The notes below the pieces were generated by a model, which did no database searches, was not told the origin of the DNA, and saw only the letters and a program-made list of their open reading frames with translations. The position numbers and the translations under genes are program-made. From contig JAIQZU010000049.1 of the NCBI GenBank assembly GCA_021776915.1, positions 1 through 38,516 of the forward strand: DNA of 38,516 nucleotides, in the 5' to 3' direction. Source of the stretch: Candidatus Scalindua sp. Its GTDB lineage: Bacteria > Planctomycetota > Brocadiia > Brocadiales > Scalinduaceae. Position 1 is the stretch's first letter, and each line of letters begins with the position of its first letter. Of the stretch, positions 1,511 to 27,997 are shown piece by piece.

Positions 1511-1538
<28 letters not shown>

Positions 1539-2855: not shown

Positions 2856-3854
2856 ATGGGGCGTGGGCCTACCAAAAAATATTATCAGGTAATGAATCAG
2901 AATTATGTAGAGGGTACTCTCACCTGCCTTAAACCTGAAATAGTTAAATCCAAGATTACAAATGAATTTCCATTGGTTTTGAATATTGAACCTACTAATG
3001 CATGTAACGCTAAGTGCTACTATTGTACTCACGATAAAGTGGTTAAGAATCAAGGGACTAATTTCCTGAAAATAGATGATTTCAAAAAAATAATTGATCA
3101 AGTCGCTTCCCATAAACTTATTATGTTGAATCTTCATAAAGATGGAGAACCTCTTCTGCATAAAAATCTTCCGGAGATGGTAGAATATGCTAAGAAAAAA
3201 GACGCTGCACAAGTGATACATTTTAATACTAACGGCATATTGATTAACTCAAATGTCGGGCGAGCTGTTATTGCGGCAGGAATTGATGATATTACTATCA
3301 GTATCGATGCGGCCAGGGAAGAAACCTATTATCAGTTCAAAAAACAAAAGGGGCTTGATAAGCTGGAAGAAAATATCAAAAGAGCCATTGATTACAGAGA
3401 CAAGATTAGTAGTAAAACTATGATAAGAGTTAAAATTATGGAATTTGATGATATAAAACATGATGAAATTGAGTTATTTCATAAAAAGTGGAATGGAGTT
3501 GCAGACGAAGTTCAAGTGACTGGTGTTCACAGTTGGAGTGGGGCCGTTGATGTTAAAGTGACGGATGAGGAAACTAAAACTAGATATCCATGTGTATTGT
3601 TGTGGTATATGCTGGCAGTAAACAGTAATGGGGACGTCAGTGTCTGTAATGTAGATTGGGATTATTCAGGAGTGGTGGGCAATATATACCGCCAAAGTAT
3701 TAATGAAATCTGGAATAGCAAGCTTTTAAAAAATATCAGAAGAGCACAATTAAAAGAGGATTGGTGCAATCCATCGGTGTGTAAGCAGTGTGTCGTCTGG
3801 GTTAGTGTAGGAAATTTATGGGAGTTTTTAAAGGAAAAACGGGAGTTTATTTGA
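2856..3854 (+). CDS. Radical SAM / SPASM-domain protein
   Basis: This is a 332-residue radical SAM enzyme. The cluster motif CNAKCYYC supplies Cys50, Cys54 and Cys57, preceded by NIEPTNA, and KDGEPLLHKNL is the usual glycine/glutamate SAM-binding strand. The C-terminal third has Cys246, Cys264, Cys304, Cys309 and Cys312, in the pattern of a SPASM domain that binds additional iron-sulfur clusters. The motif GNIYRQSINEIWNS is typical of that region. SPASM proteins modify peptides or sugars or oxidise alcohols. In glycan loci their substrates are mostly unknown. The ATG at 2856 has no clear ribosome site and an in-frame ATG at 2892 is an alternative. It lies between the aminotransferase and GT2 genes and probably acts on the same sugar or its carrier. 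Confidence 0.85.
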   Translation: MGRGPTKKYYQVMNQNYVEGTLTCLKPEIVKSKITNEFPLVLNIEPTNACNAKCYYCTHDKVVKNQGTNFLKIDDFKKIIDQVASHKLIMLNLHKDGEPLLHKNLPEMVEYAKKKDAAQVIHFNTNGILINSNVGRAVIAAGIDDITISIDAAREETYYQFKKQKGLDKLEENIKRAIDYRDKISSKTMIRVKIMEFDDIKHDEIELFHKKWNGVADEVQVTGVHSWSGAVDVKVTDEETKTRYPCVLLWYMLAVNSNGDVSVCNVDWDYSGVVGNIYRQSINEIWNSKLLKNIRRAQLKEDWCNPSVCKQCVVWVSVGNLWEFLKEKREFI

Positions 3855-3873
3855 AAAACTCTTAGGTTCTATT

Positions 3874-4521
3874 ATGGAAATTAGTATCGTCATTACATGT
3901 CATAATTACGCGCAGTACCTGGGGAGATCAATCAGAAGCGCTATAAATCAAACATTTCCCAGGAATCAATATGAAATTCTGGTAATCGACGATGCTTCTA
4001 CCGATGAGACAAAAGATGTAATGGATTCCTACTCGGGATACATCAGGCCGATACATTTAAAGAAAAATGCTGGGCTTTCTGTCGCCAGAAATACAGGGAT
4101 AAAAATGTCAATAGGTAAGTACGTAGTAGTAGTTGATGCGGACGATTATATTGGAGAAAATCTCCTTTTAATAGAATCATTATTTTTATCCGATCATAAA
4201 GAATGGGATGCTGTCAGTTGTGACTATGATTTGATTGATGACGCAGGAAATGTTTTTGATAGAAAAAGTGGCAAAGAAGAACCGATAGCCTGCGGCATTC
4301 TTTTCAAAAAAGATAAATTATTTGATATCGGTCTTTATAATCCAAAATATAAAGCTATGGAAGAAGTAGAGCTTAGACAACGGTTTGAAGAAAAACATAG
4401 GATAGAGAATGTTAATCTTTCTCTTTATAGATATAGAAAACATGATAATAATCTGACTAATAATCAACAACTAATGGATCATTATTCAACATTATTGAAA
4501 AAAGACAATTCAGGGTTATGA
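3874..4521 (+). CDS. Short GT2-family glycosyltransferase
   Basis: This is a 215-residue GT-A fold protein. It begins MEISIVITCHNYAQYL, has ILVIDDASTDET at residues 35-46 (nucleotide-binding aspartates 39-40), LSVARNTGIKMS around 69-79, and the DAD metal-binding motif at Asp88-Asp90 followed by DY. It is shorter than most GT2 enzymes and keeps little beyond the catalytic domain. No membrane segment is seen. It would transfer a sugar from a nucleotide donor in the cytoplasm. Its stop overlaps the next start by 4 bases (ATGA), so it is probably translationally coupled to the NeuB-type synthase. That coupling hints that it uses the acidic sugar made by its neighbours. Confidence 0.85.
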   Translation: MEISIVITCHNYAQYLGRSIRSAINQTFPRNQYEILVIDDASTDETKDVMDSYSGYIRPIHLKKNAGLSVARNTGIKMSIGKYVVVVDADDYIGENLLLIESLFLSDHKEWDAVSCDYDLIDDAGNVFDRKSGKEEPIACGILFKKDKLFDIGLYNPKYKAMEEVELRQRFEEKHRIENVNLSLYRYRKHDNNLTNNQQLMDHYSTLLKKDNSGL

Positions 4522-5564
4522 AAAGTCCGGAGATCATTGCAGAAATCGGGGTTAATTATTACGATGTATCCAGAAAATTAAAGATATCTTTAATTGATTC
4601 CGTTAAAAAAATGATATCCGAGAGTAAAAAGGCCGGCATTAAAACAGTAAAATTTCAAACATATAAAGCCGAAAAATTAGCGGCAGATCACTCACCCTCA
4701 TATTGGGATTTAAGCGAAGAACCCATAACTTCTCAAAAGGAATTGTTTTCAAAATTCGATAAACTATCGGAATCGGATTATAAAGAAATAGCAGAATATT
4801 GCAGAGAAATAGATGTTGAGTTTATGTCAACTCCCTTTGACTTTGAAAGCGCCGATTTTATTAACAAAATTGTTTTAAGACACAAAGTGGCTTCCGCTGA
4901 TATCACACATTTTCCACTTTTAAAAAGAGTAGCGAAATATGGCAAGCCTATTATATTATCGACAGGAGCATCCAGGCTTGAAGAAATCACAGACGCAGTG
5001 AATCTTTTAAGGTTGGAAGGGTGTAAGGACATCACTTTATTACATTGTGTTCTATCTTACCCCACAGCTTTAGAAAATGCTAACTTATGGAAAATTCAGT
5101 CACTTAAGAAGAATTTCCCTGATTGTAAAATAGGTATTTCAGACCATACGAAGTTTTCTTTGGATGTTTTAACCGGCGCATGGCTATTAGGGGCGGAGGT
5201 CATAGAAAAGCATTTTACTATTGATAAAACACTTAAAGGCAATGATCATTACCATGCCGCCGATTGTGATGATTTTGTATTATTAAAGGATAAGATTAAT
5301 GTATTAGAAAAAATTTACGGTCGGAAAGCGGATAACTGGCTATTTGATTGTGAAAAAGACGCTTACACCAATGCCAGACGAGGAGTATATGTCAACCGGA
5401 AAGTGACAAATGGGGAAACGTTAAAGTTAGAACATTTTTCTTTTTTAAGACCACAATTAAATGGTATAAGCCCCAAACAATTAATTATGTATTTAGAAAG
5501 AAAATCATCATATGCTGAAAATATTGAAAAAGGAACGTTGATAGAAGAAATTCACATTATTTGA
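4518..5564 (+). CDS. NeuB/SpsE-family nonulosonic acid synthase
   Basis: This 348-residue protein has an N-terminal NeuB TIM barrel (about 1-280) and a C-terminal SAF antifreeze-like domain (about 285-348). Visible family motifs are IAEIGVNYY at the start, KTVKFQTYKAEKL (43-54), FMSTPFDFESADF (102-114), ILSTGAS (146-152), LLHCVLSYP (174-182), GISDH (196-200), EKHFTID (220-226) and DHYHA (233-237), which include the metal-binding histidines. The family condenses phosphoenolpyruvate with an N-acyl-hexosamine to form sialic, legionaminic or pseudaminic-type nine-carbon acids. Which product is made here cannot be decided. The next gene encodes an SpsF-type cytidylyltransferase, so the pair resembles the spsE-spsF pair of Bacillus spore-coat loci. 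Confidence 0.9.
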   Translation: MKSPEIIAEIGVNYYDVSRKLKISLIDSVKKMISESKKAGIKTVKFQTYKAEKLAADHSPSYWDLSEEPITSQKELFSKFDKLSESDYKEIAEYCREIDVEFMSTPFDFESADFINKIVLRHKVASADITHFPLLKRVAKYGKPIILSTGASRLEEITDAVNLLRLEGCKDITLLHCVLSYPTALENANLWKIQSLKKNFPDCKIGISDHTKFSLDVLTGAWLLGAEVIEKHFTIDKTLKGNDHYHAADCDDFVLLKDKINVLEKIYGRKADNWLFDCEKDAYTNARRGVYVNRKVTNGETLKLEHFSFLRPQLNGISPKQLIMYLERKSSYAENIEKGTLIEEIHII

Positions 5565-5627
5565 CGTTGAAAAGATATAAGGAAAATTTTGGTTTTATGA
5601 ATTTGGTATTAAACTTCTTTTAAACAA

Positions 5628-6389
5628 ATGGTAGCTGCTATTATTCAGGCGAGAATGGGTTCCACAAGACTTCCTGGCAAAGTCTTGATGGATATTAATG
5701 GAAAACCTTTAGTTCAACGTGTTATAGATAGGGTTAAGTATGCCACTTTGGTAGACAAAATAATCCTGGCGACTACTCTTGATAGGAGCGATAACAAATT
5801 AGCGGATCTTGGGAAAGCAATGAATGTCGATCTGTTTAGAGGCAGTAGGGATGACGTTTTAGACCGCTATTACCAAGTTGCAAATACTTTTGGAGTTGAT
5901 GTTATTGCGAGGATTACGGCAGATTGTCCGCTGATTGATCCTTCAATAATTGATCAGGCAATAACTACTTTTCTTGACGGTGATTACGACTATGTAAGCA
6001 CTGCTTATCCGGATGCAAGCTTTCCTGATGGTCTGGATGTTTGTATTTTCTCTATTTGTACCCTTGAAAAAGCATGGAAAGAGGCTTTAATGCCCTCGGA
6101 GCGTGAGCACGTAACGCCGTATATCTGGAAAAATCCTAGGATTTTTAGAACAAAAAATATTAAACATACTGAAGATCTATCAGCAATGCGTTGGACCGTG
6201 GATGAAGAAAGTGATTTGGAATTTGTTAGAGAGGTATATCATAGTTTAGATGACAATACAGGAAGTATGTTTTACATGTCAGAAATTTTAGATTTAATTA
6301 ATAAACATCCGGAGATTCTTAAAATCAATCAAGGAATAGAACGCAACAAGGGATATCATATATCTCTAAAGGAAGATAAACAAATTTAA
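5628..6389 (+). CDS. SpsF-type cytidylyltransferase (first copy)
   Basis: This 253-residue protein belongs to the CTP_transf_3/SpsF group related to NeuA and KdsB. The nucleotide-binding loop IIQARMGSTRLPGK covers residues 5-18, followed by DCPLIDPSIID near 98-108 (acidic metal-binding residues) and a C-terminal RWTVDEESDLEFV segment characteristic of SpsF. The group activates acidic sugars as CMP derivatives, so it most likely uses the product of the upstream NeuB-type synthase. The ATG at 5628 has no strong ribosome site. A second intact SpsF lies at 10196 and a decayed one at 11921, so cytidylyl transfer is over-represented relative to the single synthase. Confidence 0.87.
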   Translation: MVAAIIQARMGSTRLPGKVLMDINGKPLVQRVIDRVKYATLVDKIILATTLDRSDNKLADLGKAMNVDLFRGSRDDVLDRYYQVANTFGVDVIARITADCPLIDPSIIDQAITTFLDGDYDYVSTAYPDASFPDGLDVCIFSICTLEKAWKEALMPSEREHVTPYIWKNPRIFRTKNIKHTEDLSAMRWTVDEESDLEFVREVYHSLDDNTGSMFYMSEILDLINKHPEILKINQGIERNKGYHISLKEDKQI

Positions 6390-6410
6390 TTTCAAACATA
6401 ACTATTTGTC

Positions 6411-6416
6411 GAGGGG
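6411..6416 (+). promoter_or_regulatory. Strong ribosome-binding site that fixes an ATT start
   Basis: GAGGGG lies 5 bases before an ATT codon at 6422-6424. No ATG, GTG or TTG stands at the proper distance in the frame that encodes the complete epimerase N-terminus, so this site is the main reason to place translation initiation at ATT. Confidence 0.6.
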
Positions 6417-6421
6417 AATCC

Positions 6422-7459
6422 ATTAATTATTTAGTAATAGGAGGTGCTGGATTTATCGGGTGCAATGTTGCTGAATTTTATTCTAAACAAGGCAACAATG
6501 TAATAGTATTTGATAATCTTAGTCGTCTAGGTTCCATTCTAAATCTTAATTATTTACAAGAGAATTATTGTAATGTAAAGTTTATTTATGGTGATATTCG
6601 AAATCAATATGACCTGGTAGATGTATTTCGTAAGTCTAAATTTGACGTAGTTTTCTTACTCGCTTCCCAAGTTGCTGTAACTACCTCCATCATTACTCCA
6701 AGAGAAGATTTTGAAATAAATGCTTTAGGGACGCTCAACGTCTTAGAAGCAATGCGCGTTTCTAAATCAAATGCAGTTCTTATATATTCTTCTACAAATA
6801 AGGTTTACGGTGCGATGAAAGATAAATTTATAATTGAACAGGAAGATCGTTACGAGTACCGCGATTTTCCTGATGGTATCTCAGAAGACCAGTGTCTAGA
6901 CTTTTATTCCCCTTATGGTTGTTCTAAGGGGGCTGCAGAACAATATGTTATTGATTACAGCCGCATATATGGTTTGCGCACGATCGTTTTTCGGCAATCA
7001 TGTATTTATGGTTGGAGGCAATTTGGTATTGAAGACCAGGGATGGGTGGCTTGGTTTACAATTGCTGCAGCGTTAGGTGTATCAATTAATATATATGGTA
7101 ATGGCAAGCAGGTTCGTGATGTGCTTTTTGTTGAAGATCTTATAGAAGCTTACGATTTTGCAATACACAATATTGAAAGGACTAATGGGCAAGCATACAA
7201 TATTGGAGGGGGAGATTTCCATATGTCACTTTTGGAACTGTTAGAATTTCTCAATGAATTTTCTGAAATAGTAATTCCAGTGACTTATGGTGATTGGCGC
7301 CAAGGGGATCAACGCATCTATATTTCCAATATAACAAAAGCTAAACGGCATTTTGGATGGAAACCTAAAACTCCAGTTAGAGAGGGTGTTCAAAAACTTT
7401 TTCTTTGGGTAAAAAAAAATAAAGACATTTTTGTGAAACTTGGTTTGATTCAACAGTAG
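6422..7459 (+). CDS. NAD-dependent sugar epimerase, CDP-paratose/tyvelose 2-epimerase-like
   Basis: This SDR-family protein has 345 residues if read from an ATT start at 6422. The first standard start in frame, ATG 6752, would remove the whole Rossmann motif. From 6422 the protein begins with YLVIGGAGFIG, then VIVFDNLSRLGS, a GDIR segment and LASQVAVTTSI: an intact NAD-binding half. Later STNKVYG, SPYGCSKGAAEQY (catalytic YxxxK), RQSCIYGWRQFGIEDQGWV and GKQVRDVLFVEDL match CDP-paratose 2-epimerases (TyvE/RfbE). Those enzymes invert C2 of CDP-linked dideoxyhexose. The upstream CDP-glucose pathway genes are not in the window, so the true substrate may differ. GAGGGG at 6411 supports the ATT start. 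Confidence 0.85.
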   Translation: MNYLVIGGAGFIGCNVAEFYSKQGNNVIVFDNLSRLGSILNLNYLQENYCNVKFIYGDIRNQYDLVDVFRKSKFDVVFLLASQVAVTTSIITPREDFEINALGTLNVLEAMRVSKSNAVLIYSSTNKVYGAMKDKFIIEQEDRYEYRDFPDGISEDQCLDFYSPYGCSKGAAEQYVIDYSRIYGLRTIVFRQSCIYGWRQFGIEDQGWVAWFTIAAALGVSINIYGNGKQVRDVLFVEDLIEAYDFAIHNIERTNGQAYNIGGGDFHMSLLELLEFLNEFSEIVIPVTYGDWRQGDQRIYISNITKAKRHFGWKPKTPVREGVQKLFLWVKKNKDIFVKLGLIQQ

Positions 7460-7561
7460 GCTGAAGCAATAATAATTGTTACGAATTACAACAAACACTA
7501 CAAGGAAAAACCGCAACTAAGGCAAATTAATTATGAATCGGAAGGTTAAATAGAAAATATT

Positions 7562-8422
7562 ATGCCAGAGACTCTTGATCTTTCCGTTACCGTTTGCACA
7601 TTAAATGAAGAGGAAAATATTGGGAAATGCCTTGAATCACTTTGGGAGCAGCATCCACGCGAGATTATTGTTATTGATGGTGGGTCAGATGATCGAACTG
7701 TGCAGATTGCAGAAAATTTTAGGGCGAGGGTCATAAATGCAGGACGTAAAGGGCTTGCATACCAACGCAAATTAGGTGTTGAAACTGCGCGATTCAAGTA
7801 TATAGCTTTGATTGATGCAGACCATCGACCTGATAAGAATTGTTTTGCTATTCTCATTCGTGAACTTGAAGAGATTGGGTACGATGGAATTGAAGCACAA
7901 ATAATAAGTGTATCCAATAAAGGCTATTGGGATTGGGCTATGGAATTGAACTTCAGATTAACTCACAATATTCCAGGCCGAAGAATAATGATTGGTACTC
8001 CATGTATTTACAGGAGAAAAGTATTGAAAAAAGTCAACTTTGATCCTTTTTTTACGGGACCTTCTGACGATACTGATTTGTGTTACAGGCTATGCAAAGC
8101 AGGCTATAAGCTAGGAGTAGGCACTCCAATTGTGAGGCAAGAACATCGTAGTGATTTTAAAACTTTTGTTAGAAAATGGATATGGTATGGTAAGGGAGAT
8201 GCGCAATTTGCTTGGAGACATCCAGAAAGGCTATACAGCATTGTAAAGCATGAATTATATAATTACCCTATAAAAAAAAGTTTTGTTGCTATTAGGAGTA
8301 AGCAGTTCAAAGTGATTCCATTTTTTGCTTTATGTGGAATGTTTCGTCATTATGGTTTTCTGAAAGAGCTGATTAAAATGATAATGGGTCAGAGAGTAGA
8401 CAGGAATATTTATAAAACGTAG
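7562..8422 (+). CDS. GT2-family glycosyltransferase
   Basis: This 286-residue GT-A protein begins with LSVTVCTLNEEENIGKCLES. It has IIVIDGGSDDRTVQIAE at about 35-51, DADH at Asp85-His88 (metal-binding DxD), and FTGPSDDTDLCYRL later as the acceptor-site acidic motif. After about residue 200 comes a positively charged amphipathic stretch (RKWIWYGKGDAQFAWRHPER) with no clear transmembrane helix. This suggests peripheral membrane contact with a lipid-linked acceptor. Its 102-base upstream spacer is the largest in this part of the cluster apart from decayed regions, and holds nothing I recognise. The donor sugar cannot be inferred; the neighbouring epimerase and radical SAM genes are the likely sources. 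Confidence 0.87.
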   Translation: MPETLDLSVTVCTLNEEENIGKCLESLWEQHPREIIVIDGGSDDRTVQIAENFRARVINAGRKGLAYQRKLGVETARFKYIALIDADHRPDKNCFAILIRELEEIGYDGIEAQIISVSNKGYWDWAMELNFRLTHNIPGRRIMIGTPCIYRRKVLKKVNFDPFFTGPSDDTDLCYRLCKAGYKLGVGTPIVRQEHRSDFKTFVRKWIWYGKGDAQFAWRHPERLYSIVKHELYNYPIKKSFVAIRSKQFKVIPFFALCGMFRHYGFLKELIKMIMGQRVDRNIYKT

Positions 8423-8516
8423 ATACTTGTGCTGCGTTTTATATAAGCATCAGTTTGTAAATGGTTTTGCTTAAGCATAAATTTGTGAAAATGATAGAGT
8501 AGAATTTGGAATAAAA

Positions 8517-10181
8517 TTGATAATTAAGAATAGTAATAAGTTAAGGGTTATGCTTATTAATCCAATTTGTGCACCAAGCGTTTCAACTTTGATTGAGGAC
8601 GGAAAGAAGAAAAAGACAAATGCAGATGAGCCATTAGGATTAGCTTATATTTCATCATGGATTCAGAAGAAGGTACCAGGAATCAATATAAATATTTATG
8701 ATCATCACATAGACTGCTTGAAACTGATTCATAATAATAGCATTGTTACAGAAGAAAATCTTATTAGTTTGCTGAGAGTTAGAATAGAAGAATGTCAACC
8801 AAAAGTTGTGGGCATTAGTGTTCTCTACCACATGAACTCAAATATTGCACATATTACTGCCAGGATTATAAAAGGATTTGATCCAAACATTGTTGTTGTA
8901 ATGGGAGGCATTTATCCAACAGCATCACCTGATGAAGCATTACGAGATCACAATATAGACTTTATAATTCCTGGTGAAGGAGAAATACCGGTTCAGAACT
9001 TTTTAGAATATCAATTGGGCGCGAGGAATATTGATGAACTGCACTCCATAGGATATCGCTGTCGAGAATCTAATAAAATTATATTTAGGAAAACAAGTGC
9101 CTTTATAGCAAGGTTAGAAGATCTAGGATTGCCGGATAGAACAATGCTTCCCATAGGAAAATATTCAACATGGGGACGTATATGTGTAGAGCGTTTTTAT
9201 CGTGAGAAATGTGTTGTCGCTGCTATACAACCATCGAGAGGATGTCCATTTAGATGTACTTTTTGCTCAGGACACACGATTACACTAAGAAAATATAGAA
9301 CACGTGATGTGAAAGATATTGTTGCAGAAATGAGATATTTGCGAGATGAATATGGTATGCAAGTTTGTACCTTTAATGATGAAAATGCTAATGCCGACCC
9401 CAAGTGGTGTATAAAGCTATACAACGAAATAATTAAGTCAAAACTTGGAATAAGATGGATTCATTCCGGCGGATTCTATGTTCACTTGATGAATGAAGAG
9501 TTGATTGAGAAGGCTATCGAAAGTGGCCTGATTATGTTTAATCTTGCCATTGAATCTGGCAGTTCCAATATTTTGAATTTAGTTAAAAAGTCAATTAAAA
9601 TCATTGATAAAGCGCCAAATGCAATTGAGATGATCCGAAAATGCAACCCTGAAATATATGTGGAAGGGTTCTTTCTTACAGGGTTTCCTTTTGAGACTCG
9701 TGAAGATTTGGAAAAAACCATCAAATTTGCATTAAGCCTTGATTTAGATTGGGCGCTCTTCAATATTTTTCAACCTTTTCCAGGGACTGAATTATATGAT
9801 TATTGTGTTGACAATGGGCATCTTCATCCAGATGCATTCTCTTACAATAATTTAGTACACTACATGTCAACACAGCTAAAAAACACTTTGATTCCGACTA
9901 AAGAATTAGAGACTACTACTTACATGGCAAATCTGTCTAAAAACTTTGTAAATTCTCGGACGCTTCGGACGGGTAATTATAAACAGGCAGTAAGAGATTA
10001 CGAACATGTTACAGATATTGCACCAGATCATGCGTTAGCTCATCTGTGCCTTTCAAAGGGTTATGAAGGATTGAAACGTTTTGATGAAGCGAAGCAAGAG
10101 AGAGAAATTGTTTCGGCAATTGCAAGAAAAGATGATATACAGGCAGATTACTTAAAACATTTTAATTTGATGGTTACTTGA
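8517..10181 (+). CDS. B12-binding-type radical SAM protein with C-terminal TPR
   Basis: This is a 554-residue protein. Residues about 8-175 form a cobalamin-binding-like Rossmann domain (VMLINP start, then VVGISVLYH, VVVMGGIYPTASPDE and FIIPGEGE). The radical SAM core follows, with RGCPFRCTFC giving Cys243, Cys247 and Cys250. Near the end, residues about 487-532 read as one or two tetratricopeptide helices pairs (NYKQAVRDYEHV, then ALAHLCLSKGYEGLKRFDEA). The classical DxHxxG cobalamin ligand is not evident. Relatives include methyltransferases and ring-modifying enzymes, usually acting on unactivated carbon. TTG at 8517 is used, with GGA about 6 bases upstream; ATG 8550 is an alternative. Its place between a GT2 and an SpsF gene suggests a sugar or lipid-carrier substrate. 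Confidence 0.85.
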   Translation: MIIKNSNKLRVMLINPICAPSVSTLIEDGKKKKTNADEPLGLAYISSWIQKKVPGININIYDHHIDCLKLIHNNSIVTEENLISLLRVRIEECQPKVVGISVLYHMNSNIAHITARIIKGFDPNIVVVMGGIYPTASPDEALRDHNIDFIIPGEGEIPVQNFLEYQLGARNIDELHSIGYRCRESNKIIFRKTSAFIARLEDLGLPDRTMLPIGKYSTWGRICVERFYREKCVVAAIQPSRGCPFRCTFCSGHTITLRKYRTRDVKDIVAEMRYLRDEYGMQVCTFNDENANADPKWCIKLYNEIIKSKLGIRWIHSGGFYVHLMNEELIEKAIESGLIMFNLAIESGSSNILNLVKKSIKIIDKAPNAIEMIRKCNPEIYVEGFFLTGFPFETREDLEKTIKFALSLDLDWALFNIFQPFPGTELYDYCVDNGHLHPDAFSYNNLVHYMSTQLKNTLIPTKELETTTYMANLSKNFVNSRTLRTGNYKQAVRDYEHVTDIAPDHALAHLCLSKGYEGLKRFDEAKQEREIVSAIARKDDIQADYLKHFNLMVT

Positions 10182-10195
10182 AAGGTGTGTGATGT

Positions 10196-10945
10196 TTGTA
10201 TAAGACTAAAGCTGGCGTGAGGATTGTTGCAATAGTTGAAGCACGTATGACGTCCACACGTCTACCAGGAAAGCATATGTTGGTAGCCAATGGAAAGCCC
10301 ATGATCCAACATTTGATAGAGCGACTAAAAATGGTTTCATCTCTTGATGAAATCGTGTTAGCGACAACAATTAATGATACAGACGAACCATTAATCTCTT
10401 TGGCGAAGAAACTCGAAATAGCATACTTTCGTGGAAGCGAAGAGGATGTAATGAATCGTGTGATAGGAGCTGCGGAGTCCGTTGATGGCGAAATCATTGT
10501 TAGCATTACCGGTGATTGTCCAATCCTTGATCCATCACTAGTTGAACAAACAATTCAAATGTTTTTAAACAATAAATGTGCTTATGTGAATAACGCAGCC
10601 ATTGCAAGTTATCCCGGAGGCATGAATACTCAGGTTTATGAAGTCGAAACATTGAAAAAATCAGCTTTGATAACTGAGGACCTGCTAGATCATGAACATG
10701 TGACTTCCCACATTATGAGAAATCCTGAATTGTTCCTTCCGATTTATCTAGTTGCTCCACCTGATTTATACTGGCCTGAATTGAGACTGGAGCTCGATGA
10801 ACAGGCTGATTATGAATTCTTAAAAAGGATTATTGAATATTTTGGTGATAAGAATCCTTGTTTCTCTTGTAATGATGTTATTGAGCTTTTGCGGCAAAAG
10901 CCTGGTTGGGTTGAGGTTAATCAGGATGAAAGAAGGTTTTCTTAA
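10196..10945 (+). CDS. SpsF-type cytidylyltransferase (second copy)
   Basis: This 249-residue SpsF homologue has VEARMTSTRLPGKHMLV (residues about 14-30) as the CTP-binding loop, GDCPILDPSLVE at about 103-114, and the C-terminal LRLELDEQADYEFLKRI. It is clearly diverged from the copy at 5628, with a different N-terminus and a WPELRLELDE segment. TTG at 10196 is the only reasonable start, preceded by AAAGG about 10 bases upstream; a nearby ATG in another frame stops at once. Its stop codon directly abuts the ATG of the sulfotransferase gene. With only one NeuB-type synthase in view, this copy may activate a different acid sugar, possibly one made by radical SAM or oxidoreductase steps nearby. 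Confidence 0.85.
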   Translation: MYKTKAGVRIVAIVEARMTSTRLPGKHMLVANGKPMIQHLIERLKMVSSLDEIVLATTINDTDEPLISLAKKLEIAYFRGSEEDVMNRVIGAAESVDGEIIVSITGDCPILDPSLVEQTIQMFLNNKCAYVNNAAIASYPGGMNTQVYEVETLKKSALITEDLLDHEHVTSHIMRNPELFLPIYLVAPPDLYWPELRLELDEQADYEFLKRIIEYFGDKNPCFSCNDVIELLRQKPGWVEVNQDERRFS

Positions 10946-11920
10946 ATGCAAAAAAAATCAAACGTGAAGAACACTCTTCTTGAGAAGCCACTTCTGGTAT
11001 TTGTTCATATTAGTAAGTGTGGCGGAACAACGATGATGGATATCTTAGGAAATTTATATTATCAACATGGATCTTTGGATAACAAACGGGAATCATTTAG
11101 GTTAAATAATGGGCATATCTATAAAAACGGAGTTGTTTTGAGGCCCTGGGGCAAAACACCAGTTTCGGTTGCTGAATATCACCAGCTTCCCCAGAGAATA
11201 AAGAATGATATACTTGTTATACAGGGAGGTCTTGGTACTCATCATGAAATAAATAGAGCATGCAAATATATTACAATTCTCCGACACCCTGTAGAGCGTG
11301 TAATTTCATATTATTATTGGGCTGTCAGAAGAGGGAAGGTAGGCGCAAACTCTATAGGTGAATACATAATAAATAACAAATTATCTCTTTTGCATCATAT
11401 AGGAGAAGGTGTAGATGTTGAACATGATAATATGATGACTCGGCATCTGGTTAATGCTAAAGAAGATCTAGGATTCGGTAAGCTATCACCAAATCATCTC
11501 TACCAGGCAAAGAAGAATTTAGATAAGTATTTTGATGTGGCTGGCATCATGCAAAGGTATGATGAGTCTCTTGTTCTTATGAAGAATATTCTTGGATGGA
11601 ATCTTATGCCAACTTATGAAAAGAAAAAAGTTGGCAGCTATAGAGAAGAGATTGATAAGGAAACCATGGGAGCAATAATTGATTGTATACTAGATATAAA
11701 ATTATATGATTATGCAGTTGGAAAATTGAACAGATTAATTAAAGAAAATAAATATTCATTTAATAGAGACATGGAAAAATTCGAAAAAATCAATAAATCA
11801 TATCAATTAAGAAGGCATATTCAAAATAGAGTGTCTTCTTTTATTGATTCAAAGCGTATTTTTCAGTTTTTCATGCGGCACTCCAAAGATTTAATGTTAT
11901 TCCTAAGAACTCAGAAATGA
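10946..11920 (+). CDS. PAPS-dependent sulfotransferase (Sulfotransfer_2-like)
   Basis: This is a 324-residue protein. FVHISKCGGTTMMDIL (residues 19-34) is the 5'-phosphosulfate loop seen in heparan-type 2-O/6-O sulfotransferases, with Lys24 as the likely catalytic lysine. ITILRHPVERVISYYYW (109-125) is the 3'-phosphate motif, with Arg113 and Ser121. The rest is basic and helical, with a lysine-rich C-terminus. It would transfer sulfate from PAPS to a hydroxyl of the glycan. PAPS-making genes are not in the window. It directly follows the second SpsF copy and is followed by a decayed SpsF copy, so sulfotransferase plus SpsF may have been inserted or duplicated here. Acceptor unknown. Confidence 0.85.
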   Translation: MQKKSNVKNTLLEKPLLVFVHISKCGGTTMMDILGNLYYQHGSLDNKRESFRLNNGHIYKNGVVLRPWGKTPVSVAEYHQLPQRIKNDILVIQGGLGTHHEINRACKYITILRHPVERVISYYYWAVRRGKVGANSIGEYIINNKLSLLHHIGEGVDVEHDNMMTRHLVNAKEDLGFGKLSPNHLYQAKKNLDKYFDVAGIMQRYDESLVLMKNILGWNLMPTYEKKKVGSYREEIDKETMGAIIDCILDIKLYDYAVGKLNRLIKENKYSFNRDMEKFEKINKSYQLRRHIQNRVSSFIDSKRIFQFFMRHSKDLMLFLRTQK

Positions 11921-12155
11921 TATATTTATGTGAATCCAGAACTGTTTACATCCATATACTTCCGCCATCTGATTTGTACTAGCCGGTGTTCAATTTGGAG
12001 CTTGATGAGCAGGCTAGCTACGAATTGCTGAGAAAAGTAATCGATCATTCGGTGGTGAGAATTTCTGATTCTCATGCGAAGAGTTCGTTGTTCTATTAAA
12101 TGAAAAGTAGGATTGGGTTGCGACCAGCCGTAAAGTAAAAAGGGAACAGTTTTGA
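11921..12155 (+). pseudogene. Decayed SpsF-type cytidylyltransferase, 3' relic
   Basis: The spacer between the sulfotransferase and oxidoreductase genes translates, across three frames, into the C-terminal third of an SpsF protein. Frame a from 11921 gives NPELFTSIY. Frame b from 11962 gives PPSDLY, a TAG where SpsF has Trp (11980-11982), then FNLELDEQASYELLRKVID. Frame c gives VVLLNEK, a TAG, and DWVATSRKVKREQF ending at 12155. The intact copy at 10196 has NPELFLPIY, PPDLYWPELRLELDEQADYEFL and GWVEVNQDERRF in the same order. At least two frameshifts and two stops make it non-functional. The identity level suggests an old paralogue, not a fresh duplication. The remnant still overlaps the next start codon by 4 bases (TTGA). 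Confidence 0.8.
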
Positions 12156-19647: not shown

Positions 19648-20898
19648 ATGAAAGATTATAATATTGACAATCTGACCAGTATACTAAAATCAAATTCTGC
19701 GACTGTCGTACTGTTTGGCGCTGGAGATTATGGTAAGCTTGCTCTATATGCTCTGAAAACGTTTGGTATTCAGGTCAGTTACTTTTGCGACAGTGATGAG
19801 CGCAAATGGGGAAAGCTTTATTGTGGTGTTAAAACCATTTTTCCCAAGGAATTGCTTGGGCTGAAACCTGATACTCATATTTTTATATGTAACAACTATA
19901 TAATCTCAGTTTCCTCTTTACTTAAACAAATGAATATTGCGAACATATACAGTTGTACGTCTCTTTTGGAAAACACCGATTTCTCCAAAACTGCTTTAGG
20001 TATACAGTCTTGTGATATTCAAAGAAAAATTGCGTTTCATAAAAGAGCATGTCTGAATGCAGACAATATCACATCTGGCGACCTTAATATAGCATGTATA
20101 GATATTGTTGTCACTGAACGCTGTTCTCTAAAATGCAGAGATTGCTCAAACCTGATGCAATATTATGTCGAACCCAGGGACTGCGATTTAAATTTGCTTT
20201 TAAAATCTGTTGACAAAATTATGGAGTGTATTGGCTGGCTTTATGAATTCAGAGTGCTAGGTGGAGAGCCATTTGTGAATAAACAATTGCATAAAGTTAT
20301 AAATGAGCTTGTAAAATACGAGAATGTGGGCAATGTAGTTGTCTATACCAACGGTACAATCATTCCAAGAGGCGAGTATTTGTTATGTCTTAAAAGCAAC
20401 AAGGTTAGGCTTGAAATTACAAATTATGGTGATATTTCAAAGAAATACAGTGAGCTGATTGAAACGCTTAAGGCTTATAACATAGCGCATATAACAAATC
20501 GTGTCAGCAAATGGGATGACTGCGGAAGCATACAGTACCATCAAAGAACAACGAGCGAACTTACTCATATGTTTAGGAACTGTTGCATGAATGATGTGAT
20601 AACATTGTTGCACGGAAAATTATACAGATGTCCTTTCTCCGCTCATGCAATAAATCTTAACGCAATTCCCATTAAAAAGAATGAAGTCATAGATTTTTCT
20701 GATGAAAATACAAGTCTTGATGACTTGAAATACGGAATAAAGCAACTATATAATAATAGTCAATATATAAATGCCTGTAATTATTGTAATGGTAGAGATT
20801 ATAATTCCCTTGAAATTGAGGCAGCTGTACAAGTTAAAGACCCGTTGCTGTTAAATGTTTATTCAGGAGACATCTCAAACCCACAGACCAAAGAATAA
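19648..20898 (+). CDS. Radical SAM protein with N-terminal nucleotide-binding-like domain
   Basis: This is a 416-residue two-domain protein. Residues 17-105 resemble a Rossmann-like domain (ATVVLFGAGDYGKLALYALK, YFCDSDERKWGKLYCGVKTI, IFICNN) of the kind attached to sugar transferases and PglD-like proteins. Residues about 148-360 form a radical SAM core with TERCSLKCRDC giving Cys159, Cys163 and Cys166, then FRVLGGEPFVN. Further cysteines occur near the end (CCMND, CPFSAHA and the CNYCNGRDY motif), so an auxiliary cluster is possible. The N-terminal module resembles the C-terminal module of the broken GT2 at 22537. The following IS transposase lies 181 bases downstream, so this gene and the broken GT2 may have been neighbours before the insertion. 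Confidence 0.82.
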   Translation: MKDYNIDNLTSILKSNSATVVLFGAGDYGKLALYALKTFGIQVSYFCDSDERKWGKLYCGVKTIFPKELLGLKPDTHIFICNNYIISVSSLLKQMNIANIYSCTSLLENTDFSKTALGIQSCDIQRKIAFHKRACLNADNITSGDLNIACIDIVVTERCSLKCRDCSNLMQYYVEPRDCDLNLLLKSVDKIMECIGWLYEFRVLGGEPFVNKQLHKVINELVKYENVGNVVVYTNGTIIPRGEYLLCLKSNKVRLEITNYGDISKKYSELIETLKAYNIAHITNRVSKWDDCGSIQYHQRTTSELTHMFRNCCMNDVITLLHGKLYRCPFSAHAINLNAIPIKKNEVIDFSDENTSLDDLKYGIKQLYNNSQYINACNYCNGRDYNSLEIEAAVQVKDPLLLNVYSGDISNPQTKE

Positions 20899-21070
20899 AT
20901 ATTTATGTTGTTATTCAGTTTTTGATTGGAAATTTACAAGTGTAGTAATTTCTGGTAGTTACGAATATCGAAAGGCATAAAAATTCTTGCAAAATGGGAG
21001 TTATATGATACAATCTTTTTTTATAAGTTGTTGTACAACAAAGGATTATATTAATATTTCCCAAATGCAA

Positions 21071-21075
21071 GGAGG
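21071..21075 (+). promoter_or_regulatory. Ribosome-binding site deciding the transposase start
   Basis: GGAGG lies 4 bases before ATG 21080. The open frame extends upstream to 20987, but nothing there resembles a ribosome site, so the start is placed at 21080. Confidence 0.7.
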
Positions 21076-21079
21076 TAAA

Positions 21080-22429
21080 ATGAGAGCAATTCGAGACACG
21101 CAATTGAGGTTTGAATTTTATCAGAGTGATAGCAAAATGTCAAAGAAACTGGAGAAAATGTCAGATATTTTACAAAAAGACAGAAGTTTTTTAGAGAAAA
21201 TAGCAGAGGATTTCAAGACGCCAAAAGGGTCTCCTGCCGGGGCAAAAGGGATGACAGTAGAACAGGTGGTAAGGGTTGCAATATTGAAACAGCTACGTCA
21301 ATTGGGCTATGAGGAATTATACGATTGCTTGAATGACAATATAAGTTACAGGCACTTTGCAAAGGTTCGCGAAGGCGTGATTCCTAAGAAGGCGACGTTG
21401 AATGAGAATATAAAGAAGATATCTCCAGAAGGATGGGAGGAGATACATAAGGTAATAGTCAAGACCGCGATAGAGATGGGCGTAGAAAAAGGTAAAAGTG
21501 TACGAACGGATTCAACAGGAGTGGAAAGCAATATTCATTATCCGACAGATGGAGAGTTGTTGTGGGATTGTGTAAGAGTAATAGATAGGATAATCGAAGG
21601 AGTAATGGGAGAATATCCTGAAATGGAGATAGAGTATCACAATCACACGACGAGGGCTAAGAAACGGAGATACCGGATAGTCAATACGAGCAGTAAAGAG
21701 AAGAGAGTGGAAGCGTATAAAGATTTACTGAAGGTGTCAAGAGCAACAGCAGAATACAGTGAGTCCTGCATAAAGCAGTTGGAGAAGAAAGTAAAACAGG
21801 GAGATATAGAGGCTGGGGTGTACAAGGAGAATTTAGCAGGATATTTGGAATCATTGAAGATCATAATAAATCAAACAGAGCGTAGGGTATTAAAAGGCGA
21901 GATTGTTGAATCGAAGGATAAGTTAGTATCAATATTTGAGACGCACAGTGATATATTAGCCAAGGGCAAGAGGAAGGTGGTATTTGGTCATAAGATATTG
22001 CTGAGTGGAGGTAAAAGCAATTTGATATTAGACTGTATGATAGAGAGAGGTAATTGGAGTGATGCGGAATATTTTAGAGAAGGGATAGACAGGCTTGAGG
22101 AAAAGTACGGATTTCTTCCGGAGGAGATAACAACGGACGGTGGATTTGCAAGTGGCGATAATTATGATTATGCAGTAGGCAAAGGGATTAAGAAGGTTTT
22201 GTTTACGAAGAAATGCGCATCGAAGATAGTGGAACTTGTAAAGACAAGCAGAGCATATAAGAAGTTAAAAAGGTTTCGAGCAGGGATTGAGGGATGTATA
22301 TCTGCGGCAAAGAGATCGTATGGTTTAAGCAGATGTACCTGGAAAGGATGGCAGAGTTTTCAAAGCTATGTTTGGTTAAGTGTGATAGCTTTTAATCTGA
22401 ATATTCTGTCTGTCGCTTTGTTGAAATAG
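21080..22429 (+). mobile_element. IS transposase, ISNCY-like family, intact
   Basis: This is a 449-residue protein starting MRAIRDTQLRFEF after a strong GGAGG site. It has an N-terminal DNA-binding segment with KGMTVEQVVRVAILKQLRQLGYEEL, a helical middle, and a DDE-type catalytic core: KSVRTDSTGVESNIHYPTDG (first Asp), EITTDGGFASGDNYDYA (second Asp), then IEGCISAAKRSYGLSRC (Glu). That is the pattern of the ISNCY/IS1202-like group. Its regular base use, strong start and full length suggest a recent, active element. I could not find convincing terminal inverted repeats in the 20899-21079 and 22430-22536 flanks, so the ends are undefined; a perfect 14-bp palindrome at 21028-21041 lies inside the likely left flank. 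It separates the radical SAM gene from a damaged GT2 gene. Confidence 0.85.
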
Positions 22430-23885: not shown

Positions 23886-23970
23886 GTTATCGCAACTCAA
23901 CGGATGTGGTATTGGACAATATAAAAACTAATAGAAATATGCACATGTTAGTTGAATCTAGGTCTGTTTA

Positions 23971-24960: not shown

Positions 24961-25095
24961 TCAGTATTTGATAGCCAGACAATGTTCAGTGATTATCATT
25001 TAATAATAATTGTACTGCCTAAAGCACCTCTGAATAATTATTTGATATATAAACAGTTAAATGGTGTTTATTGATAGATAAGTCCAACATTGAAG

Positions 25096-26538
25096 ATGGC
25101 ACGTTCTAATGAGATTGCGGCTTTAGAAAGTCGTTTCAAAGAAAGTTTTGATGATGTTCTTATCTCTACTCTGGATGGTAAAGACTTTACCTATGGCCGG
25201 TTCTGGGTAAATGCTCAGGGAATTGCTGATAATTGGCGTAACAATGGTATAAAACCTGGAGTCAACATTGCGCTCATATTACCTAATAGTGTCTCTATGT
25301 TAGCGTGTTATCTTGCCTGTGTAATTGGCGGGTATATTGCAAATCCAATTCTAACGACATTATCTCAAGAAGAGATTGAGGCAAGGCTTGCTTTGACTCG
25401 CCCTGTACTGGTGATAAGGGAACCTTTTGAGTTATCTCAAAGTGTTAGCCTATTAGATATTGAAAATGTCAGAATCACTACAGGGTCTGACTCTAGTTTT
25501 TGTGTGATGTTTACGTCTGGAACCACTGGAAAACCGAAGGGAATCTGTCATAGTCTTTCCGGTATGATAGGTAGTGCTCGATCTTTTGCAAATATTGCGG
25601 GGATGAATAAGCAAACTCGTATCTACCATATCTTGCCTATGGCATATATGGCGGGGTTTATTAATACTTTTCTGGCTCCTCTCCTCTCAGGTGGGAGAAT
25701 TATTGAGGGATCGGTAGTTTCTGCTGCTGCCATGCTTGACTTCTGGGAGCGTCCTGTCGACATGAAAGTGAACACTCTGTGTCTGACACCGACGATTGCG
25801 GCTATGTTATGCCGATTAAACCGAAACAGGAAAGATGCTCGAAAATATGCAGCTAACCTGCGAATTATTCTGTCCACGGCTGGCGTTCTGCACAGTGGTC
25901 TTAGAACGGAGTTTATGAGGATTTTCGGAAAACCCCTTCAAGATTGCTATGGTACGACTGAATTAGGGGGGCCACTGACCGTACAGTTTCCAGAAGACGC
26001 TTTAGTTGTCGAAAACTCAGGCTGTCCTATACCTGAGTTGGATTTCTCGTTTCGTCCTGCTCCAGGTGGGGAGAATGAAATGTGGATTCGCTCGCCATAT
26101 ATCATGAAAGGTTATTTGACTGAAGAGGGCTTGAGTCTGCCAGTCGACGAACAAGGGTTTATGGCGACAGGTGACTTGGCAGAAATCGTGGATGGAAACA
26201 TAATTATTACCGGACGGTGCAAGGATATTATTATTCGTGGCGCAGAAAATATTGCCCCTATTGTTATTGAAAATGAAATTAGTGCCGTCGAAGGGGTTAA
26301 AGAAGTTGCAGTGATTGGAATGCCTCACGAATTTTGGGGTGAGATCGTTGTCGTTTGTATCTTGCCGGAAGATAACATAGAAGAGGCGATGTTGCTCAAT
26401 GAAGTTCAGCTACGCGCCTCGGAGTATCTTTCCCCTATGTATCAACCGGACAAGATCATAGCCGTTAAGGAATTTCCGAGGACATTTACAGGTAAAGTTC
26501 AAAAAAACATTCTGAGAAATCAATTAATGATCGCATAG
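25096..26538 (+). CDS. AMP-forming acyl ligase (ANL superfamily)
   Basis: This 480-residue adenylate-forming enzyme has the P-loop MFTSGTTGKPKG (residues 138-149), the A5 motif DCYGTTELGGPL, the A7 motif MATGDLAEIVDG, the A8 hinge GRCKDIIIRGAENI and the A10 motif PRTFTGKVQKNILR with Lys467 as the likely catalytic lysine. It is shorter than typical acetyl-CoA synthetases and resembles acyl-CoA/ACP ligases of natural-product and cyclohexanecarboxylate type. It would activate a carboxylic acid as acyl-AMP and load it onto CoA or the acyl carrier protein at 28013. TTG at 25090 just upstream is an alternative start. A gap of 129 bases follows the MDR gene. The acid used is unknown. Confidence 0.87.
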   Translation: MARSNEIAALESRFKESFDDVLISTLDGKDFTYGRFWVNAQGIADNWRNNGIKPGVNIALILPNSVSMLACYLACVIGGYIANPILTTLSQEEIEARLALTRPVLVIREPFELSQSVSLLDIENVRITTGSDSSFCVMFTSGTTGKPKGICHSLSGMIGSARSFANIAGMNKQTRIYHILPMAYMAGFINTFLAPLLSGGRIIEGSVVSAAAMLDFWERPVDMKVNTLCLTPTIAAMLCRLNRNRKDARKYAANLRIILSTAGVLHSGLRTEFMRIFGKPLQDCYGTTELGGPLTVQFPEDALVVENSGCPIPELDFSFRPAPGGENEMWIRSPYIMKGYLTEEGLSLPVDEQGFMATGDLAEIVDGNIIITGRCKDIIIRGAENIAPIVIENEISAVEGVKEVAVIGMPHEFWGEIVVVCILPEDNIEEAMLLNEVQLRASEYLSPMYQPDKIIAVKEFPRTFTGKVQKNILRNQLMIA

Positions 26539-26839
26539 TATCGTTAGCTTGTTAGGGCTATTAGATCACTGCTATCTAATCGTTTTACGTACATCTGAAT
26601 TAAGTAGCCGTGTTGAATACGCGTTGAATAATACCCTGAATTTAAAATTCATCATCTTGGTGGGCTGAAAGGCTCCTTTGTTTTAGATTGTATTCTAGAA
26701 ATGATGAACTAGGTGAACGGATAGTTTTTTTAAATTTATGTTAACAATGCTGTTTTGCTGTCAGCTACAATCTGCAATATTATTGGGTAAATAATAAGCA
26801 TAAAGTTAACATATTTACCAGGATAAAAGGGGTAATGAA
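26539..26839 (+). other. 301-base spacer with possible transposase relic
   Basis: The gap between the ligase and radical SAM genes is longer than most in the cluster. It carries the weak hairpin above. It also has a short stretch, 26641-26712, whose frame 1 reading (FKIHHLGGLKG then SFVLDCILEMMN) resembles the GHKILLSGGKS to LILDCMIERGN strand of the ISNCY-like transposase at 21080: 7 of 16 aligned residues match in my hand alignment. It then hits a TAG. No intact gene is seen. The last 15 bases contain AAGGGG, the ribosome site for the next gene. Confidence 0.4.
26560..26580 (+). terminator. Weak candidate terminator hairpin
   Basis: A perfect 7-bp inverted repeat (26560-26566 with 26574-26580, 7-base loop) follows the acyl ligase stop by 22 bases and is succeeded by CGTTTT. 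The stem is AT-rich, so as a rho-independent terminator it is weak. Confidence 0.3.
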
Positions 26840-27997
26840 GTGGATAATAAGAGTAATACTGCCACAGTACGTTCAGGAAATCAACTCAATCTGATAATGA
26901 AACTACACCAGCGCTCAGTTGTACATCGTATTAATGAGATCGATTGGGAGAGTGGGTCATCCTCATCTCCATCAGTTGTTGAGCTCGATCCGACAACTGC
27001 TTGCAATTTAGTTTGTCCTGATTGTATCAGCCGTGATCTGCTTAACCAGGGATTTTTTACTCGAAAACGTATGCGTGAACTTACAAAGGAAATTGTAGAT
27101 GCAGGAGTTAAGGCAGTCGTCTTGATTGGAGGGGGAGAGCCGCTTGCCCATCCTGAAATTGGATGGGTTATAGAATATTTAGCTCAAAATAATGTTCATG
27201 TTGGCATTACTACCAATGGACTCTTAATTGACCGATATATTGACTGTATCGCAGAGTATGCCAGTTGGGTTCGAGTGTCAATGGACTCAGCTACATCAGG
27301 TACCTATAAACATATTCGTCCAAGTCAGAGTGGTGTTTCTATGTTTGAAAAGGCATTTCACAATATGAGAAGTTTGGCAAAGATTAAACATGGGAAATTG
27401 GGATATTCCTTTGCACTATTTTCTGAATGTGAATTTGATATCAATGGACATGTGAACGTTAGATTTTCAAATGTACCGGAGATTTACAAAGGAGCTGTTT
27501 TAGCCAAAGAAATAGGATGTGACTATTTTGAGGTTAAGCCAACTTATAATATGGATCATCACTTGATAATTCATCCTGAAGAATTGATGCAGAAGGCAAA
27601 ACATCTGCTTAAACAATCATCAGCTTTGGAAGATAAAAAATTTAGTGTACTGCAGGGGACAAAATTGGGTCATGTTTTAAATTGTGAGTCCGATATCGAA
27701 CCTAAAGATTATAATCGTTGTGCCGTTGCACAGTTACGTACGCTTATAACACCTTCAGGAGTTTATGTTTGCCCATATTTCAGGGGAAGAATAGATAAAA
27801 AATTAGGAGATGCACGGAAAATGTTATTTAATGACATATGGCATGGAAAAGATCGCGCAAATGTTATGGAATCACTTAATCCTTCGAAAGACTGCCTTTT
27901 TCATTGTATTCGCCATGATTCTAATATGGTTATTGAAGATATTATTGCAGGAAAAAGCACTGTGGAGTCTGTAGAGGATTTTGATGAATTTATATAA
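26840..27997 (+). CDS. Radical SAM / SPASM-type protein
   Basis: This 385-residue protein uses a GTG start with AAGGGG 7 bases upstream. VELDPTTACNLVCPDC carries the Cys-x3-Cys-x2-Cys cluster motif (about residues 54-61), and VVLIGGGEPLAHPEI is the SAM-binding glycine/glutamate strand. The C-terminus has CAVAQLRTLITPSGVYVCPYFRG and CLFHCIRHDSN cysteines in the SPASM or twitch arrangement, so auxiliary iron-sulfur clusters are likely. It sits just before the acyl carrier protein gene (15 bases apart), in an acyl-activating neighbourhood. A carrier-bound acyl or amino-acyl group is therefore a possible substrate. I do not recognise a characterised subfamily. Confidence 0.82.
   Translation: MDNKSNTATVRSGNQLNLIMKLHQRSVVHRINEIDWESGSSSSPSVVELDPTTACNLVCPDCISRDLLNQGFFTRKRMRELTKEIVDAGVKAVVLIGGGEPLAHPEIGWVIEYLAQNNVHVGITTNGLLIDRYIDCIAEYASWVRVSMDSATSGTYKHIRPSQSGVSMFEKAFHNMRSLAKIKHGKLGYSFALFSECEFDINGHVNVRFSNVPEIYKGAVLAKEIGCDYFEVKPTYNMDHHLIIHPEELMQKAKHLLKQSSALEDKKFSVLQGTKLGHVLNCESDIEPKDYNRCAVAQLRTLITPSGVYVCPYFRGRIDKKLGDARKMLFNDIWHGKDRANVMESLNPSKDCLFHCIRHDSNMVIEDIIAGKSTVESVEDFDEFI

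Follow-up and report, generated by a model that had tools for sequence, protein, structure and literature searches.

The radical S-adenosylmethionine (SAM) enzyme BtrN, the 2-deoxy-scyllo-inosamine dehydrogenase of butirosin biosynthesis, catalyzes the two-electron oxidation of an aminocyclitol alcohol, and its low-potential auxiliary cluster, held by four cysteines where that of MoaA has three cysteine ligands, is the likely electron acceptor (PMC9012708). The pathways to the nonulosonates (NulOs) neuraminic (Neu), legionaminic (Leg) and pseudaminic (Pse) acid and the Bacillus subtilis sps spore-crust pathway (PMC7439481) use a NeuB-family synthase, an SpsF-type cytidylyltransferase, a DegT aminotransferase and an epimerase/dehydratase. 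We analyzed a 38,516-bp stretch of DNA (the window) from Candidatus Scalindua sp. (assembly GCA_021776915.1, contig JAIQZU010000049.1) that encodes the same set of enzymes, SpsE being the nearest solved relative of its NeuB, but in which, unlike in these canonical pathways, NeuB is adjoined by radical SAM (rSAM) genes and a class III aminotransferase dependent on pyridoxal 5'-phosphate (PLP). Five rSAM genes, rSAM1 to rSAM5, start at positions 2856, 8517, 18103, 19648 and 26840. The window takes up the whole of contig C44, which is cut at both ends, in a 3.79-Mb draft genome (89 contigs, 95% complete) of an anammox planctomycete of the genus Scalindua. Its main genes all lie on the plus strand and encode, by Pfam and NCBIfam, sugar-nucleotide, glycosyl-, sulfo-, acyl- and methyltransferase functions, and its assignment as a surface-glycan cluster is supported. 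We slightly favor a reading of the left half (428-10945) as a variant NulO pathway, in which the twitch-type rSAM1 would replace or supplement the usual NAD-dependent redox steps.

Linkage of rSAM1 to NeuB across phyla

The preliminary description of this DNA suggested a survey of how its rSAM genes co-occur with NeuB and SpsF, and for rSAM1 such an association is seen across phyla, with aminotransferase genes as a further partner. An rSAM1 alignment, used to search 84,980 genomes, yielded 79 loci, the flanks of which were annotated using the window proteins. Among orthologs with at least 43% identity to rSAM1, NeuB lies within 10 kb in 8 of the 10 loci that have at least one flank of 5 kb, compared with 3 of 63 for homologs below 40% identity (Fisher p = 5e-7). 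The two high-identity exceptions are L061, where the contig is cut 1.7 kb past the gene start, and L135, which has only 5-6 kb of flank. High-identity hosts are Scalindua, a second planctomycete of its order, members of the Riflebacteria, KSB1, Omnitrophota and Negativicutes, a gammaproteobacterial symbiont, a deltaproteobacterium and an unclassified bacterium; the Scalindua genome G008 carries an ortholog on contig JABHIW010000166. The well-supported, uncharacterized clade to which rSAM1 belongs stands beside NeuB, usually with SpsF and an aminotransferase that uses PLP, in nine genomes of six or more phyla. The linkage is seen in Planctomycetota, Riflebacteria, KSB1, Omnitrophota, Bacillota and Gammaproteobacteria; L058 and L224 are one genome and were counted once. 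In a maximum-likelihood tree (IQ-TREE) built from 97 homologs, two clades are NeuB-linked, that of rSAM1 (12 rows of the tree) and that of a second rSAM (11 rows, support 100/99). The NeuB label requires 10 changes on this tree compared with 22.5 for shuffled labels, and none of 500 shuffles was equally clustered. The NulO-pathway assignment of the rSAM1 clade is well supported.

In five genomes the order of genes is nearly fixed: a PIG-L deacetylase, WbqC, a carbamoyltransferase, rSAM1, a GSA-aminotransferase, SpsF, the second rSAM, a B12-binding rSAM (B12-rSAM) or methyltransferase, NeuB and a protein of 333-363 residues, which from its sequence we read as PseG-like, though Pfam gave DUF354 only. 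The second rSAM is found in the cassette of most relatives and not in the window, and the cassette of the gammaproteobacterial symbiont is without the aminotransferase and SpsF. Most like the window is KSB1 locus L059, with rSAM1, NeuB, a family 2 glycosyltransferase (GT2), SpsF, DegT, a second GT2 and a B12-rSAM. Homologs also occur on IMG/VR contigs filed as viral, in L135 (62% identity to rSAM1; a gene for a class III aminotransferase is close by) and in L138, L149 and L156, which also carry NeuB-like genes.

Across 8 cassettes, 43 columns of the NeuB alignment are invariant, among them those of the AExG, KxQT, STP, HC, SDH and EKHxTxD motifs. The NeuB proteins fall into two sub-types, with a DHYH or a GPDQ motif, despite the common rSAM1, which suggests that rSAM1 may act on a part common to the products of both. 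Activation to CMP-sugars is represented in the window by two CTP_transf_3 proteins. The class III aminotransferase (starting at 1511), which accompanies rSAM1 in 7 further loci as a conserved partner, scores above the curated cutoff of the glutamate-1-semialdehyde aminotransferase PRK06209 (583 versus 486 bits), and its relatives in the PDB include sugar C-6' aminotransferases. The family name is an annotation, and genomic context suggests a role in the sugar pathway.

Resemblance of rSAM1 to BtrN and the predicted pathway

The rSAM1 sequence profile, compared with the PDB, matches BtrN first (E = 4e-33, across the rSAM core and twitch domain), followed by MoaA at about 4e-16, and the profile of the second NeuB-linked clade likewise ranks BtrN first (1e-19). 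An AlphaFold2 model of rSAM1 (pLDDT 93.6, pTM 0.93) also places BtrN at rank 1 by Foldseek (E = 5e-14) and best by VIA (Z 22.8, root-mean-square deviation 3.0 over 237 residues). The SPASM domain first ascribed to rSAM1 is not of the two-cluster kind but a twitch domain with four cysteines. These residues (C246, C264, C309 and C312) show conservation of at least 90% and align to the twitch stretch of BtrN, and C50, C54 and C57 of the core CxxxCxxC motif are invariant in 41 homologs. In both proteins the rSAM core leads into a twitch domain whose single auxiliary cluster has four cysteine ligands, and in both pathways an aminotransferase takes part. They differ in sequence (about 20% identity), in length (332 residues for rSAM1 versus about 250, with an N-terminal extension, MGRGPT...) and in setting, aminoglycoside biosynthesis for BtrN and a NeuB/SpsF surface glycan for rSAM1. 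The likeness to BtrN and the auxiliary cysteines support, short of proof, a dehydrogenase function.

The best NCBIfam match of rSAM1, the spiro-SPASM family TIGR04321, was dropped as an assignment, the score being far below the cutoff of 250 bits. rSAM1 matches the C-terminal half of this family (91 bits) and the second SpsF, weakly, the N-terminal half (31 bits, likewise under the cutoff). These split matches suggest that the rSAM1 and SpsF families may be naturally fused elsewhere, whereas the window encodes them in two unfused genes.

Our best reading of the pathway is that rSAM1 oxidizes a sugar carbinol independently of oxygen and so feeds transamination. In the scheme that we infer, covering reaction, substrate and order of steps, rSAM1 would cleave SAM, and the resulting 5'-deoxyadenosyl radical would take a hydrogen from the carbinol C-H of a sugar intermediate. 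The second electron would pass to the four-cysteine auxiliary [4Fe-4S] cluster to leave a keto-sugar, as in BtrN, and the carbonyl would be converted to an amine by a PLP aminotransferase, either the class III enzyme or DegT (13121). NeuB is then predicted to condense the product with phosphoenolpyruvate to a nonulosonate, SpsF to form the CMP-sugar and the GT2 enzymes to transfer it to the surface glycan. Decoration could follow by the sulfotransferase, by methyltransferases and by an acyl module dependent on an acyl carrier protein (ACP), consisting of the AMP ligase, rSAM5, the ACP and the AAC3-type acyltransferase.

The other radical SAM genes and the anammox pattern

Each of the five rSAM open reading frames named in the preliminary description has a CxxxCxxC motif and a Pfam Radical_SAM match, of 56, 67, 69 and 50 bits for rSAM1, rSAM2, rSAM3 and rSAM5, respectively, and of 24.9 bits for rSAM4 (E = 2.6e-5), under the 29.5-bit gathering cutoff. 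The B12-binding domains proposed for rSAM2 and rSAM3 are above cutoff, but the TPR tail of rSAM2 (20 bits) and the SPASM-like domain of rSAM5 (18 bits) are below theirs. For rSAM4, the proposed Rossmann-like half is seen as a weak match of the N-terminus to the NeuD/PglD type, joined to the sub-threshold radical SAM half. All five score far under every NCBIfam subfamily cutoff (best score/cutoff in bits, rSAM1 to rSAM5: 91/250, 177/575, 169/481, 36/284 and 67/380).

Five rSAM genes in 25.1 kb compare with 0.47 expected from the 71 rSAM domains of the 3.79-Mb genome, about ten times background (Poisson P = 1.3e-4 for five in 25 kb; 0.02 comparable windows expected across the genome). This 25.1-kb part of the window is the second-densest rSAM stretch of its size in the host, after contig C32 (12000-26000; L055), with six in 13 kb, a heptose-7-phosphate-kinase-like gene and one HpnJ-like rSAM (392 bits, below the cutoff of 578). 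Such density had been called unusual, which it is beside NeuB loci elsewhere in the Planctomycetota (0.17 rSAM per 20 kb over 40 loci, only 6 of which have any), but rSAM enrichment around NeuB is common in the anammox relatives of the order Brocadiales (1.5-1.7 per 20 kb), a contrast that may be somewhat inflated, as the rSAM profile was partly trained on Brocadiales sequences. Three of the 11 Brocadiales loci were chosen via rSAM hits; the unbiased set is that of all nine NeuB loci of the order, and the 173 kb around these nine genes of the sampled genomes contain 13 rSAM genes versus 3.3 expected at own-genome density (p = 4e-5). A second NeuB locus of the host, on contig C83 (120001-180000; L052-L054), has seven rSAM genes in 60 kb, mostly of the B12 type, and in another Brocadiales genome the locus G317:C229 (L214, L215) has eleven within 30 kb, alongside genes for a sugar epimerase, DegT and glycosyltransferases. 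Because of this enrichment near NeuB in Brocadiales, with the loci on C83 and G317:C229, the window locus is one instance of a recurrent anammox pattern and not a single odd locus.

A glycan role had been proposed for all five genes. It stands for rSAM1, tied to NeuB, and finds support for rSAM3, which has relatives in glycan loci, but rSAM2, rSAM4 and rSAM5 have no orthologs that would prove such a linkage. Relatives of rSAM3 (40-45% identity) are found in glycan loci of four other Brocadiales genomes, with a conserved neighborhood in three; in G333 a further rSAM lies there along with NeuB and an SpsF-like gene. rSAM3 probably acts on the same glycan as rSAM1, while for rSAM2, rSAM4 and rSAM5 this is unproven. 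rSAM2 has no match at E <= 1e-60 in the 61 other genomes of the order, and neither it nor rSAM4 has a clear ortholog among the 62 genomes of the order, rSAM4 having weak relatives in the rSAM-rich locus G317:C229. Orthology of rSAM2 to the B12-rSAM genes of other cassettes was rejected at only 22-28% identity. Relatives of rSAM5 reach only 23-32% identity, and those from the rest of the Planctomycetota (25-30%) are not, by BLAST annotation, situated in glycan contexts. Single-protein scans of viral collections gave no relatives of rSAM2, rSAM4 or rSAM5 and one of rSAM3 (19% identity), and broad phylum searches at strict thresholds gave almost none for rSAM2 to rSAM5.

Among described systems, rSAM2 and rSAM3 share their architecture of B12-binding and rSAM domains with the top-ranked BchE, Sden_1168/PhpK P-methyltransferase and AprD4, but score about one third of the Sden_1168 and BchE family cutoffs (177/575 and 169/481 bits). 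The nearest solved relative of rSAM5 is the cytosylglucuronate decarboxylase BlsE (E = 1e-7), with a match limited to about 130 residues of the rSAM core; unlike BlsE, rSAM5 directly precedes an ACP gene. Because this gene follows and an AMP ligase and an AAC3-type acyltransferase are near, a carrier-bound acyl group is a reasonable guess for the substrate of rSAM5. The ACP gene, directly 3' of rSAM5, is overlooked in length-filtered lists of open reading frames.

The features of the window are collected in Table 1. The epimerase at 6422-7459 is complete only if an ATT start, preceded by GAGGGG, is used. Beside the sulfotransferase-like gene, positions 11905-12150 hold a degenerate stretch similar to an SpsF C-terminus, the remnant of what looks like a third such gene and a sign of past duplication and reshuffling. 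The ISNCY element is a later insertion outside the pathway; inverted repeats were sought at its ends and not found. Just 3' of its transposase lies a GT2 gene split by a frameshift (22570-23885), the C-terminal Rossmann-like segment of which resembles the N-terminus of rSAM4.

Table 1. Coordinates, strand and basis of assignment of features in the 38,516-bp window
Feature	Coordinates	Strand	Basis
NAD-dependent epimerase/reductase, GDP-fucose-synthase-like	428..1387	+	NCBIfam NF047922 305 bits, cutoff 500 not reached
Class III PLP aminotransferase, glutamate-1-semialdehyde aminomutase type	1511..2821	+	NCBIfam NF004856 583 bits > cutoff 486
rSAM1, twitch-type radical SAM, NeuB-linked clade, BtrN-like	2856..3854	+	Pfam, PDB profile, AF2 model, NeuB linkage
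GT2 glycosyltransferase	3874..4521	+	Counterpart adjoins rSAM1 in L059 and L063
NeuB-family nonulosonate synthase	4518..5564	+	Pfam NeuB 248 bits; conserved motifs; nearest PDB chain SpsE 1vli
SpsF-type CMP-sugar cytidylyltransferase 1	5628..6389	+	Pfam CTP_transf_3 116 bits
NAD-dependent epimerase/4,6-dehydratase	6422..7459	+	Pfam GDP_Man_Dehyd 167 bits; open frame
GT2 glycosyltransferase	7562..8422	+	Counterpart in equivalent position, KSB1 locus L059
rSAM2, B12-binding and radical SAM, TPR-like tail below cutoff	8517..10181	+	Pfam; best NCBIfam Sden_1168 P-methyltransferase 177/575 bits
SpsF-type cytidylyltransferase 2	10196..10945	+	Pfam CTP_transf_3 95 bits
Sulfotransferase-like protein	10946..11920	+	Pfam Sulfotransfer_2 28.6 bits > cutoff 22
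Gfo/Idh/MocA sugar dehydrogenase A	12152..13120	+	Pfam
DegT-type sugar aminotransferase	13121..14398	+	PseC/LegC family 220/204 bits, below cutoffs
DUF4910/DUF2172, M28 peptidase-like protein	14464..15792	+	
Surface-carbohydrate glycosyltransferase-like protein	15841..16995	+	Weak NCBIfam TIGR04396
Gfo/Idh/MocA sugar dehydrogenase B	16992..18014	+	
rSAM3, B12-binding and radical SAM	18103..19530	+	Pfam; 40-45% relatives in glycan loci
rSAM4, PglD-like Rossmann N-terminus and twitch-type radical SAM	19648..20898	+	Sub-threshold Pfam; weak relatives in G317:C229
ISNCY transposase	20987..22429	+	NF033593 403 bits > cutoff 325
AMP-forming acyl-CoA/ACP ligase-like enzyme	25090..26538	+	Pfam AMP-binding 168 bits
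rSAM5, radical SAM with degenerate SPASM/twitch	26840..27997	+	Pfam; nearest solved chain BlsE
Acyl carrier protein	28013..28261	+	Pfam PP-binding 24.0 bits > cutoff 20.8; VDSF motif
AAC(3)-family N-acyltransferase	28251..29075	+	Pfam Antibiotic_NAT 110 bits
GNAT/FemAB-like acyltransferase	30868..31839	+	
Sugar C-methyltransferase (Methyltransf_13/14)	34358..35578	+	

Alternative readings and implications

Several observations weigh against a radical oxidation step in a NulO pathway. DesII is second to BtrN by VIA (Z 21.8), about 1 Z unit away, so that the fold alone is not decisive, and the sequence tests do not separate a dehydrogenase from an epimerase or dehydratase. The class III aminotransferase is not found in L059, L063 and L064 and is therefore not obligatory, a hydrolase of the PseG/NeuC/LegG type was not recognized in the window, whose contig is cut at both ends, and rSAM2, rSAM4 and rSAM5 are without orthologs tying them to the cassette. 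Furthermore, the linkage between clades is read from genes in metagenome-assembled genomes, which most of the genomes are, some of them on short contigs. It is conceivable, if rather unlikely, that rSAM1 acts on the nonulosonate or its precursor redox-neutrally, as a radical epimerase like NeoN of neomycin biosynthesis or as a radical lyase that dehydrates or deaminates, like DesII. The structural rank of DesII speaks for such a reaction, several sugar-acting twitch/SPASM enzymes are redox-neutral, and epimerization is the sole difference among many NulOs. By sequence profile, however, BtrN is ahead of the next family by about 17 orders of magnitude, the second NeuB-linked clade ranks it first as well, and the adjacent aminotransferase fits a carbonyl-forming step. 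Within the well-supported NulO assignment, we thus infer dehydrogenation by rSAM1 rather than epimerization or dehydration.

That the five genes accumulated by accident in an rSAM-rich genome and serve separate pathways, with only rSAM1 or none of them acting on the glycan, would agree with the genome-wide count of rSAM domains, with the patchy occurrence of rSAM2, rSAM4 and rSAM5, which lack orthologs, and with a locus reshuffled as judged from the insertion sequence (IS) element, the frameshifted GT2 gene and the SpsF remnant. We regard this as improbable given the tenfold local density, the rSAM enrichment around Brocadiales NeuB genes compared with those of other Planctomycetota, and the presence of rSAM3 relatives in other glycan loci. 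It is very improbable that the rSAMs mainly modify a lipid carrier, a hopanoid- or ladderane-type lipid or a peptide and not sugars: anammox bacteria do make ladderanes, and rSAM2 and rSAM3 have sub-cutoff matches to B12-rSAM lipid families (HpnJ, TIGR04072), but these matches fall far short of the cutoffs (124-126 of 578 bits for HpnJ), the neighboring genes encode sugar enzymes with no gene for a lipid or for the precursor of a ribosomally synthesized and post-translationally modified peptide recognized in the window, and the nearest solved relative of rSAM1 acts on an aminocyclitol. For the lipid carrier, which the preliminary description listed among possible substrates, nothing was found specifically in support.

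Sialic acids and sulfated glycosaminoglycans have been reported from the anammox granule matrix (Boleij 2020, as cited in PMC10483923), and the Kuenenia S-layer O-glycan contains an unidentified residue of 174 Da (PMC5088730). In a literature search with most subscription journals outside its coverage, NulO papers made no mention of radical SAM, none joined "radical SAM" with "legionaminic", none dealt with spiro-SPASM, and none tied the sialic-acid-like or S-layer glycans of anammox bacteria to radical SAM genes; a description may have been published elsewhere. The one paper pairing Scalindua with radical SAM is reportedly concerned with secondary metabolites.

The association of the rSAM1 family with NulO genes suggests an undescribed oxygen-free route to sialic-acid-like sugars, and what would be new relative to known NulO pathways is the radical step, as predicted from sequence. 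Tentatively, the two BtrN-like rSAM clades and the class III aminotransferase may mark an undescribed oxygen-independent radical branch of NulO biosynthesis in at least six mostly anaerobic phyla, with a product whose pattern of oxidation and amination lies outside Neu, Leg and Pse and which anammox bacteria elaborate by B12-dependent rSAMs. With a BtrN-like radical enzyme and NeuB in one conserved operon, the set of genes to be tested for unusual sugars is well defined. Radical dehydrogenase-like enzymes, known from antibiotic pathways, would be extended to glycans of the cell surface, and the rSAM1-NeuB operon would serve as an annotation marker for a NulO subtype.

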